A stretch of DNA of 64,000 nt from Ancylomarina subtilis (GTDB taxonomy: Bacteria; Bacteroidota; Bacteroidia; Bacteroidales; Marinifilaceae): NCBI RefSeq assembly GCF_004217115.1, contig NZ_SHKN01000001.1, positions 434,001-498,000 of the forward strand, read 5' to 3'. Made by a program: the position numbers and the translations under genes. The notes under the pieces were generated by a model that saw only the letters and a list, made by a program, of their open reading frames with translations, was not told the origin of the DNA and did not search any database. This document shows positions 7,789 to 57,365 of the stretch, in pieces. The number at the start of each line of letters is the position of its first letter. Position 1 is the stretch's first letter.

Positions 7789-7888
7789 GTCTTAAATTTT
7801 AAATTAAAGAATTAATGGTAGCTGGGGGTAGAATACAAGAAAGCAGTAAAGTCTTCCTAAGCTTTTTCTCCCGAAAGCTACGAATTAC

Positions 7889-8036
7889 GATCAAAAATGA
7901 CAGGTCTTCCGGCTTATTGCATTTTACTTGGCCTTCCCATACGCTTGAGGCAGACAGTGGCTTTTTAATAAGTAAAACCTAATTGCAATTTACGGCTGCG
8001 GGGACAGCTACTGATTTTAACAGTATTCCCTTGATC
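7889..8036 (-). promoter_or_regulatory. Cobalamin (B12) riboswitch
   Basis: Read on the minus strand, the leader holds the conserved cobalamin aptamer parts in order: closing stem GATCAA/TTGATC (8031-8036 with 7889-7894), GGGAAT, the CTGTCCCCGC segment with a GTAA nearby, GCCACTG, GGGAAGGC and the B12 box AAGCCGGAAGACCTGTC at 7899-7915. About 100 nt follow before the nrdD start, containing alternative hairpins (AGCTTT/AAAGCT at about 7860-7879, and a GTAGCT/AGCTAC pair) but no obvious terminator, so control may act on translation. It controls nrdD-nrdG. Confidence 0.93.
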
Positions 8037-8223
8037 AATTTTGCTTTATAAAAGTAGAATGAAAATTGATATTCTAAATGAAAAAATCATTATAGTTATT
8101 AAGAAGTAATGAACAATGGTCATTTTGTTTGGTGATCTTAAGGTTTTGGATTTGTTTAAATGTATTATTTAAATTCAATCCTTTTTTTGGATAGGGCAAG
8201 ATCGGGAGCAGTGTAAAAAAAAA

Positions 8224-55574: not shown

Positions 55575-56435
55575 TTAAAGAATCATTTTTCCGATTGGAA
55601 TGGTTAGGATGCCTTCAGCACCATTGGCTTTAAGCTGATCGATCACTTCCCAAAAATCTTTATCGTTGATAACGGTGTGAATAGAACTCCAACCTTCTTG
55701 CATAAGTGGCATAACTGTTGGACTTTTCATTCCTGGTAAAATGCTATTGATGGCTTCAATATTGTCGTTAGGGACGTTTAGCAACAGGTATTTGTTGTTT
55801 TTGGCAGCTAAAACAGCACGCATTCTGAATAGTAAATCAGACAGAAGTGCGTTTTTGTCCTCTGAAATGTTGACGTTCTTTACCAGACAAGCCTCGGATG
55901 AGAGAATTTCTTCAACTTCCTTAAGTCCGTTTTTGAACAGTGTACTTCCCGAGCTCACGATATCACAAATAGCATCAGAAAGGCCGATGTTTGGTGCTAT
56001 TTCTACGGAACCTGAAATAACGTGGATTTCTGAATCCAGATTGTTTCTATCTAAGAAGGCTTGCAATGAATTGGGGTAGGAGGTTGCAATTCGTTTACCA
56101 TTAAAATAGTCTAACCCCGTGTATGCTTCATCTTTGGGGATAGCCATTTTTAATCGGCACTTCGAGAAACCCAGTTTTTGCAGAATCTCAACTTCCTTCT
56201 GTTTTTCAATCACTACATTTTCGCCAACAATGGCAATATCGGCAACTCCATCTTGCACATATTGGGGAATGTCTGAATTTCTCAGATAAAGAACCTCCAG
56301 AGGGAAGTTGCGCGCTTGTGCTTTCAACTGATCTTTCCCGTTATCTATTGAGATGCCACATTCTTTAAGAATTTGAAGCGAATCGTTTTGAAGTCTTCCT
56401 GACTTCTGAATGGCAATTTTTAATCGTGTACTCAT
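55575..56435 (-). CDS. hisG: ATP phosphoribosyltransferase, long form
   Basis: 286 residues from MSTRLKIAIQKSGRL at 56435; 19 codons open upstream are leader sequence. First, committed step of histidine synthesis. The C-terminal ACT-like regulatory domain (YLLLNVPNDNIEAINSILPG, then MKSPTVMPL) shows that this is the long HisG that does not need HisZ and is inhibited by histidine. First gene of the operon, behind two attenuators. Confidence 0.97.
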   Translation of the reverse strand: MSTRLKIAIQKSGRLQNDSLQILKECGISIDNGKDQLKAQARNFPLEVLYLRNSDIPQYVQDGVADIAIVGENVVIEKQKEVEILQKLGFSKCRLKMAIPKDEAYTGLDYFNGKRIATSYPNSLQAFLDRNNLDSEIHVISGSVEIAPNIGLSDAICDIVSSGSTLFKNGLKEVEEILSSEACLVKNVNISEDKNALLSDLLFRMRAVLAAKNNKYLLLNVPNDNIEAINSILPGMKSPTVMPLMQEGWSSIHTVINDKDFWEVIDQLKANGAEGILTIPIGKMIL

Positions 56436-56485: not shown

Positions 56486-56511
56486 ACGCCAACCTGAAAT
56501 CAGGTTGGCGT
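56486..56511 (-). terminator. Attenuator terminator, proximal copy
   Basis: ACGCCAACCTGA pairs with TCAGGTTGGCGT; on the minus strand TTCTTATTTG follows. The TCAGGT of the upstream leader (56563-56568) can pair with ACCTGA of this stem and so act as antiterminator. Confidence 0.85.
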
Positions 56512-56559
56512 GAATCGTTATAAATTTATAGCTTAAAATTTTGGCATAACAGTATCAGC

Positions 56560-56613
56560 TCACCTGAAGTAAGTAAAATGATGATGGTGATGATGCTGTG
56601 TTGTAAAATTCAT
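56560..56613 (-). CDS. hisL: His leader peptide, proximal copy (six His codons in a row)
   Basis: A 17-codon frame MNFTTQHHHHHHFTYFR ending in TGA. Six consecutive His codons make it a histidine-charging sensor: when His-tRNA is short, the ribosome stalls and the downstream TCAGGT can disrupt the terminator at 56486-56511. A pause-type stem TGTTATG/TTATAACG lies between peptide and terminator. It is 124 nt before hisG. The peptide itself is not expected to act. Confidence 0.9.
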   Translation of the reverse strand: MNFTTQHHHHHHFTYFR

Positions 56614-56687
56614 TGTTTAGAGTTTTAAAGTCTTGGGTTTAATTTGATTTTGTAATATAATTTGTTCTAGAATTGCATATAAACAAA

Positions 56688-56715
56688 AACGCCAACCTGG
56701 AATCAGGTTGGCGTT
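56688..56715 (-). terminator. Attenuator terminator, distal copy
   Basis: AACGCCAACCTG pairs with CAGGTTGGCGTT, followed on the minus strand by TTTGTTT. Nearly the same stem as the proximal copy at 56486-56511, 200 nt further upstream. Confidence 0.88.
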
Positions 56716-56754
56716 AATTGTTATGAATTTATCACTTGAGATTTTTACATAACA

Positions 56755-56814
56755 TCATCGGCTCACCTGAGGTAAGAGAAAATAATGATGATGATGTATT
56801 GCTGTAAAAATCAT
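56755..56814 (-). CDS. His leader peptide, distal copy (four His codons in a row)
   Basis: A 19-codon frame MIFTAIHHHHYFLLPQVSR ending in TGA, with four consecutive His codons. The following RNA repeats the proximal arrangement: TCAGGTGAGC (antiterminator arm), TGTTATG/CATAACA stem, terminator. It starts about 16 nt after the predicted transcription start and is the first attenuator met by RNA polymerase. Confidence 0.88.
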   Translation of the reverse strand: MIFTAIHHHHYFLLPQVSR

Positions 56815-56836: not shown

Positions 56837-56868
56837 CAAAGATTAGTATTAATATTCGTTTAAGCAAG
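56837..56868 (-). promoter_or_regulatory. his operon promoter
   Basis: On the minus strand CTTG (56868-56865) N20 AATCTTTG (56844-56837), close to the Bacteroidota TTTG/TANNTTTG consensus and placed to start transcription just before the distal leader peptide. Confidence 0.5.
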
Positions 56869-57080: not shown

Positions 57081-57365
57081 ATGGCGAGTAGAAGAAAATT
57101 AAAAAAAGATATTGACTTTTTGACTTTTGAAGTTATTTCTGATTGCTACAACTATATTTACCTGCACCCGGGAAACGAAGAAAAAGTAATCGATATTATT
57201 AAAGAAACGGTTGCAAATCGTAACAAACTTGTTGCTTGCGTAAATCACCCTGACGGTAAGGATAACGCAAAAATTGTGAAAGCATATTATAAATCAATTT
57301 TCAACGATTTAATTTCGAATACGGATGCTTCATTCACAAAATTGAGTGAATTGATTAAAGCATAA
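57081..57365 (+). CDS. Conserved small helical protein, 94 aa
   Basis: 94 residues, soluble, helical and basic at the start (MASRRKLKKDIDFLTFEVIS, DCYNYIYLHPGNEEKVIDI). No signal peptide or metal motif (two isolated Cys). It looks like a family of conserved Bacteroidota hypothetical proteins, function unknown. A good promoter before it and a strong terminator after it support a real single-gene unit. Confidence 0.8.
   Translation: MASRRKLKKDIDFLTFEVISDCYNYIYLHPGNEEKVIDIIKETVANRNKLVACVNHPDGKDNAKIVKAYYKSIFNDLISNTDASFTKLSELIKA

Follow-up and report, generated by a model that had tools for sequence, protein, structure and literature searches.

The his leader region of Ancylomarina subtilis

The window analysed here is a stretch of 64,000 nucleotides from the Ancylomarina subtilis genome, with the his operon on its minus strand. 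The operon's first gene, hisG, is followed by hisD (TIGR00069), hisC (TIGR01141), and a bifunctional hisB (NF003937), according to profile matches. Two complete histidine attenuators had been read ahead of hisG in the initial annotation, and their leaders and terminators are found in the minus-strand sequence at exactly the coordinates that it gave. Two elements absent from it are added here, namely a strand complementary to the second terminator's 5' arm and loop (strand 5), and a promoter box that is recognizable before leader 1 only. In the direction of transcription, the features are as follows:

56837..56867, minus strand: putative promoter, with the -7 box TAATCTTTG at 56845-56837 and TTG at 56867-56865; placement kept in 6/6 double loci of the genus
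56814-56755, minus strand: leader peptide 1 (MIFTAIHHHHYFLLPQVSR, then stop), with 4 consecutive His codons; ORF open in 6/6 genus loci
56761..56770, minus strand: unit 1 strand 2 (TCAGGTGAGC), the antiterminator 5' arm, which pairs with strand 3; covarying among 53 chosen units
56753-56748 (GTTATG) and 56725-56720 (CATAAC), minus strand: unit 1 inner antiterminator stem, from the sequence
56715-56688, minus strand: terminator 1 (strands 3 and 4) with T-tract GTTTTTGTTT; -20.3 kcal/mol, perfect stem
56614..56687, minus strand: inter-unit linker of 74 nt, in which the strand-5 equivalent is decayed; no -7 box found
56613-56560, minus strand: leader peptide 2 (MNFTTQHHHHHHFTYFR, then stop), with 6 consecutive His codons; ORF open in 6/6 loci
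56558..56567, minus strand: unit 2 strand 2 (TCAGGTGAGC), overlapping the leader 2 stop codon, from the sequence
56550-56545 (GTTATG) and 56522-56517 (TATAAC), minus strand: unit 2 inner antiterminator stem, from the sequence
56511-56486, minus strand: terminator 2 (strands 3 and 4) with interrupted T-tract GTTCTTATTT; -19.4 kcal/mol
56468-56455, minus strand: strand 5, 19 nt upstream of the hisG start codon and complementary to the 5' arm and loop of terminator 2
55575..56435, minus strand: hisG, with its ATG at 56435; TIGR00070 (E 7.5e-57) / TIGR03455

A 50-nt stretch of the minus strand lies between terminator 2 and hisG. The antiterminator arm TCAGGTGAGC is common to both units, as had been proposed, while the inner stem described as GTTATG/CATAAC for both holds for unit 1 only; in unit 2 it is GTTATG/TATAAC, with one G-U pair. 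The 339-nt RNA that spans both units, leader 1 through terminator 2, has a folding z-score of -7.8 against 100 shuffles, none of which was as good, and this score together with covariation in the terminator and antiterminator rules out chance or low complexity.

No Rfam match at gathering score was found in this region, the his leader family included. The sole Rfam gathering-score match in the window is a cobalamin riboswitch at 7882-8054 on the minus strand (77.6 bits). Upstream of the his promoter lies a divergent 94-aa ORF (57081-57365, plus strand), which has no NCBIfam match at E<=0.001.

Structure and predicted operation of each unit

The his operon leader of E. coli and Salmonella is a leader-peptide attenuator of one unit. 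The Ancylomarina units resemble it in their run of His codons, their mutually exclusive antiterminator and terminator, and their position upstream of hisG, and differ in being two and in having no Rfam gathering-score match. As in any attenuator of this type, each leader is a short ORF that repeats codons for the amino acid made by the operon, here in runs of 4 and 6 His codons. The competing structures were examined in an alignment (A1) of 53 chosen units, in which the two window units were joined by 51 picked from 85 de-duplicated ones; the 34 omitted were mostly divergent. Pairing across these 53 units amounts to 96.7% in the terminator and 92.2% in the antiterminator, and two-sided changes are seen at 9 of the 11 terminator pairs and at 4 of the 7 antiterminator pairs, so that an antiterminator and an intrinsic terminator that exclude each other are both borne out by covarying pairs.

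The effect of a ribosome on each leader was modeled by equilibrium folding with a masked footprint that ends 12 nt past the A-site codon. Pairing of strands 2 and 3 is predicted with any His codon in the A site and none is predicted with the stop codon there, in 14/14 units; a stall at a His codon frees the antiterminator strand in this model, and a ribosome at the stop codon masks it. With the last His codon in the A site, the edge of the footprint lies at most 2 nt from strand 2 in all 14. According to the model, this spacing is the geometry to be expected of a His-tRNA sensor. A ribosome stalled at any His codon would leave TCAGGTGAGC of that unit free to pair with the terminator 5' arm, and RNA polymerase would read on, while a ribosome at the leader stop codon would cover TCAGGTGAGC and allow the terminator to form. 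Transcription of hisG would require passage of both units. A possible protector helix between the His codons and GATGATG is 76% paired, with no covariation beyond that of shuffles. In the window RNA folded free of ribosomes, pairing of strands 2 and 3 amounts to 0.0 pairs in unit 1 vs 6.6 in unit 2, a contrast that rests on this protector helix and shares its lack of covariation support.

A single attenuator at this position is not new, because Flavobacterium psychrophilum has been noted to carry, upstream of hisG, a structured 5' element that is conserved in Flavobacteriaceae and has no Rfam match, and transcriptomic clues for leader-peptide attenuation before amino-acid operons were noted as well (PMC9723704). 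The account of the hisG element in the portion of that paper available to us mentions neither a tandem nor a strand-5 pairing (PMC9723704).

A putative single promoter ahead of both units

The consensus of Bacteroidota promoters is TTTG/TAnnTTTG. A -7 box starts exactly 31 nt upstream of the leader-1 ATG in 6/6 double loci of the genus; the box of the window has three bases between TA and TTTG, as against two in the consensus, and that of L082 reads TAACCTTTG. A promoter between the units, which had been named as one observation that would overturn the series arrangement, was sought in a scan for TAnnTTTG-type boxes, and the window linker contains none. The same scan found none in the linkers of three further loci (4/6 in all), and one-mismatch boxes inside a T-tract in those of L082 and L002, with two complete units present in each case. 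Both units are probably carried on one transcript and act in series, because all six loci share the box at this exact distance from leader 1 and four of the six linkers have none. Transcripts that start between the units and bypass unit 1 are highly improbable; the linker is AT-rich, L082 and L002 have their one-mismatch boxes and the scan covers this box type only, but the linkers of the window and three other loci are box-free and no linker box has a position matching that of the box conserved upstream of leader 1.

Taken together, the locus is very probably a pair of classical leader-peptide attenuators in series between one promoter and hisG, which arose by tandem duplication in the ancestor of the genus. 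The parts, their conservation and covariation, the fitting stall geometry, the duplication, and the box-free window linker are observed in this analysis, and we infer termination in vivo and activity of both units.

Origin of the tandem within Ancylomarina

That the pair arose by duplication had been proposed, along with a search of relatives for single or double leaders. Relatives' leaders, a unit tree, and a HisG tree agree with this proposal and confine the duplication to one genus. In a family sample of 56 genomes, 44 of which have hisG, double leader/terminator units occur in all five genomes of the window's genus, and one more Ancylomarina genome also has them. Among the other hisG-bearing members of the family, 38/39 have one leader (36 of the 38 with a script-found terminator), and no leader was found at the remaining hisG locus, L119. 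A simple pattern applied to the 80 nearest hisG loci in named genomes gave at least one His leader shortly upstream in 76, and two in three, namely L001, L002, and L003, which belong to a Marinifilaceae MAG and two Ancylomarina; in this count, His-run ORFs more than 700 nt upstream (L015, L024, L031) were excluded and L006 was judged by eye.

There are six distinct double loci in the genus, as L001/L083 and L003/L084 share their leaders and terminators. All 12 leader ORFs of these loci are open, with 4-6 His codons each. In a FastTree tree of units, those of the genus are separated from six single units of relatives with a support of 1.000; the clean copy-1 and copy-2 clades that this tree was meant to give were not separated. 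In the HisG tree, the six proteins from double loci form a 100/99 clade beside the single-leader Marinifilum and Labilibaculum. These trees suggest that the tandem is a genus-level duplication in the ancestor of the genus. The only two-sided pair difference within the genus that keeps a terminator intact is in copy 2 of L003/L084 (C-G vs T-A); the T-A state may be the older one, as related single units also have T-A.

Tandem His attenuators elsewhere in the order

A covariance model of the unit (R1), which includes the units of the window, was applied with strict filters and is insensitive to many tandems. In the window genome (G000), R1 gives four matches at E<=0.01 and two at E<=1e-4; the two of the four whose positions are listed are the two units, and no third unit was seen nearby among the matches of this genome. 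Across 295 genomes of the order, two close full-length matches on the same strand occur in the window genome, G211, and G095 among the matches listed, and at E<=1e-4 a set of 395 genomes from the phylum shows such a pair in the window genome only. Most of the other tandems found by reading were not seen as pairs among the R1 matches listed. The phylum result leaves room for more tandems, because R1 misses most of the tandems that were read.

Reading the sequence upstream of hisG in 133 of the 144 genomes with hisG in the order sample gave two units at 11 loci, one unit at 85, a leader only at 7, a terminator only at 6, and neither at 21, with 3 sequences too short. The tandems, which come from seven families, are L125, L126, L134, L135, L138, L146, L152, L161, L170, L179, and L209; ten were found by script, and the terminators of L161 were read by eye. 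With 11 further tandems in the same order, the Ancylomarina pair does not stand alone. Mapped onto a HisG tree built from 70 chosen rows, with two short ones dropped, the double state requires 7 changes, which may be gains or losses; bootstraps give 6-7, and strong branches force at least 4. The tree suggests that the tandem arose more than once. In the family of G315, two mates are single. In several of the other tandems, as judged by eye, the first and the second leader are of different types according to position, and these tandems may be older duplications. In L135 (genome G068), the HisG match behind the tandem leader contains one in-frame TGA, which may reflect a pseudogene or a sequencing error.

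Unequal copies and the output of the pair

The two copies within Ancylomarina are not equal. In 5/6 loci, the terminator of copy 2 shows a mismatch in its stem or an interruption of its T-tract, and copy 1 has neither in 6/6. The mismatches are in L082, L083, and L085 (-13.6 kcal/mol), and the interruptions are in the window, L001/L083, and L002, with the copy-2 stem intact in the window and L084. From these sequences, the terminator of copy 2 looks weaker in 5/6 loci. Ribosome-free equilibrium folding predicts readthrough of an untranslated copy 2 in 4/6 loci, whereas for an untranslated unit 1 it is clear in 1/6 (L082) and partial in L085. A symmetric pair is disfavored, because of the flawed copy-2 terminators and this predicted readthrough of untranslated copy 2.

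The units may set different thresholds instead of multiplying their effects, with unit 1 and unit 2 tuned differently. The window would fit this, in that its unit 1, with 4 His codons, is predicted to terminate when untranslated and its unit 2, with 6, to read through, as would the overall difference in untranslated readthrough between the copies. On the other hand, the pattern is reversed in L082, the evidence comes from equilibrium folding only, and the protector pairing shows no supporting covariation; separate thresholds are rather unlikely on this evidence. A different asymmetry is that unit 1 alone attenuates strongly, and unit 2 is a partly relaxed duplicate that mainly holds strand 3 for pairing with strand 5. 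The stem mismatches and T-tract interruptions of copy 2 are consistent with such relaxation, as is the pairing of strands 3 and 5 (3:5), computed to be more stable than the terminator in L001, L003, L082, and L085, though not in the window or L002. However, in 6/6 loci leader 2 has retained its frame, 4-6 His codons, and a spacing that suits stalling, and the copy-2 stems of the window and L084 are intact, which makes a relaxed unit 2 unlikely.

According to attenuation theory, sensitivity depends on the number and fraction of regulatory codons and on the race between ribosome and polymerase (PMC1183508). The multiplicative, sharper response that had been proposed for the two attenuators in series would follow only from independent action of the units, in which case readthrough would multiply and log-sensitivities would add. 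A race model built after Elf and Ehrenberg (PMC1183508) is a toy with self-chosen parameters that illustrates multiplication and proves nothing for Ancylomarina. The real gain from cascading will be limited by the leakiness of the terminators. As the same sensor is present twice in series, this gain could be measured by removing one copy.

In the parts of the literature available to us, the nearest tandem attenuator is that of Salmonella mgtCBR, which is described as a singular example of tandem attenuators for different signals (PMC3641672). Like the Ancylomarina operon, mgtCBR has two leader ORFs in series; its units sense different signals (ATP and Pro-tRNA), whereas those of Ancylomarina are same-codon duplicates, and its stem-loops are unlike intrinsic terminators and have additive effects, whereas Ancylomarina has intrinsic terminators (as far as the accessible text of PMC3641672 goes). 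A repeated sensor for one ligand is found in tandem homologous riboswitches, where more "digital" control is described (PMC9481103). Those systems are ligand-binding aptamers, in contrast to the ribosome-stalling leaders of Ancylomarina, and the terms "leader peptide" and "attenuator" have 0 occurrences in the text of PMC9481103. In the rimP leader of Gammaproteobacteria, a second tandem terminator lies upstream with a potential antiterminator, as here, but according to the part consulted its tandem terminators carry inverse motifs and have no leader peptide (PMC2965389). Searches of open PMC text found no title or displayed abstract with tandem His attenuators or a strand-5 pairing, and neither is mentioned in the passages of papers that were consulted.

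A fifth strand next to the hisG start

The more novel element of the locus, compared with the tandem, is the conserved, covarying strand 5 next to the hisG start. To our knowledge, strand 5 has no counterpart in the his leader of E. coli or Salmonella. Such complementarity recurs at many hisG loci throughout the phylum, for instance in L053, where GTCTGAGTAAATC pairs with GGTTTACTCAGAC. In a first set of 104 unique loci (117 rows; 7 loci without a start or terminator were skipped), the native complementarity sum is 1122, as against 761 +/- 20 with downstream stretches swapped (z 18.4, 0/20000). By the same measure, the region of the known antiterminator strand gives 929 vs 814 +/- 16. A second, order-level set gives a z of 8.2 from the 56 usable of 133 loci, the losses being 46/133 with a terminator less than 30 nt from the ATG and 31 with no terminator by script; 18 of these 56 loci reach p<=0.02, among which L249 and L141 look like chance. 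Strand 5 is not universal at hisG, as 57/104 unique loci score at least 11, and in L125 and L126 it is absent by eye.

The complementarity extends to the terminator loop. With the register set by the stem only, for which 27/104 loci qualify, loop pairing is 57%, as against 44% on permutation, and none of 20000 permutations reached the native value. Strand 5 pairs with 94% of the loop nucleotides in the 57 best loci, in a register chosen for best pairing. The distance from strand 5 to the ATG in these 57 loci is 16.7 +/- 3.1 nt (13-25, mostly 13-20), and that to the terminator is 16.9 +/- 7.7. In the 18 loci of the order set, where the contrast is less clear, the respective distances are 17.2 +/- 4.9 and 14.8 +/- 5.8.

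Within the genus, complementarity to the unit-2 arm reaches the lowest p value that the shuffle test can give (0.002) in 6/6 loci. The window strand 5 fits the unit-1 arm slightly better (15.0 vs 13.8), and in the other five loci the unit-2 arm is the better match. A counterpart after unit 1 is lost in 5/6 loci (p 0.55 for the window unit-1 arm against the linker) and is kept only in L085 (p 0.004), the first branch of the genus. From these sequences, the pattern can be read as duplication of the whole unit, followed by loss of the strand-5 copy that was no longer beside a start codon. A tandem duplication in the ancestor of the genus would have taken along the downstream strand-5 element, and would have let the unneeded copy of the gate decay.

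Since strand 5 lies downstream of the T-tract, it is unlikely to decide termination. A conserved pairing does stand beside the start codon and competes with the antiterminator strand, and the sequences are best explained by a role in the translation of hisG in which strand 3 is the shared partner. This role is suggested because strand 5 is kept before hisG in 6/6 loci and its copy after unit 1 is lost in 5/6. The terminator 5' arm and loop would then take part in three structures, namely the antiterminator, the terminator, and a further hairpin that in most cases lies 13-20 nt upstream of the hisG start and would keep leaky readthrough transcripts untranslated when histidine is plentiful. The terminator is computed to be more stable than the 3:5 pairing in 47/57 loci, the window included, so that in these computations a loop pseudoknot, or action on freshly read-through RNA, would be as likely as full replacement of the terminator. 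Many Bacteroidota hisG leaders could then be five-strand dual switches, with Ancylomarina having two terminators and a translational gate whose spare copy decayed; we put this forward tentatively, at somewhat less than even confidence.

Alternatively, and with a possibility that is real but falls short of even, the complementarity may mark a DNA operator or an mRNA-stability hairpin, given that the two segments also form an inverted repeat at the DNA level and that the order-set distances to the ATG and terminator vary about equally (18 loci). A translational gate, rather than either of these, is favored by the covariation of strand 5 with the terminator loop, by the greater variability of the terminator distance over the ATG distance in the first set (7.7 vs 3.1), and by the decay of the copy away from hisG.

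Shine-Dalgarno pairing is hardly used in Bacteroidota. Strand 5 hints that translation, too, may be controlled by what is otherwise a textbook transcription switch, and the decayed extra copy is a natural experiment that points to the site of action. Strand 5 of the Bacteroidota hisG leaders is likely worth a separate study.

Strand 5 as a general feature of attenuators is unsupported, as 0/38 testable trp and phe leaders reached p<=0.05, with downstream stretches that were often short and lowered the power. This test covered 24/30 trpE and 14/30 pheA loci of one family, presumably Flavobacteriaceae. The trpE and pheA loci (L283-L342, one family of the same class) carry attenuator-like leaders of their own: a WWW leader is present at 29/30 trpE loci, mostly with a terminator, and many of the pheA loci have a Phe-rich leader, also mostly with a terminator.
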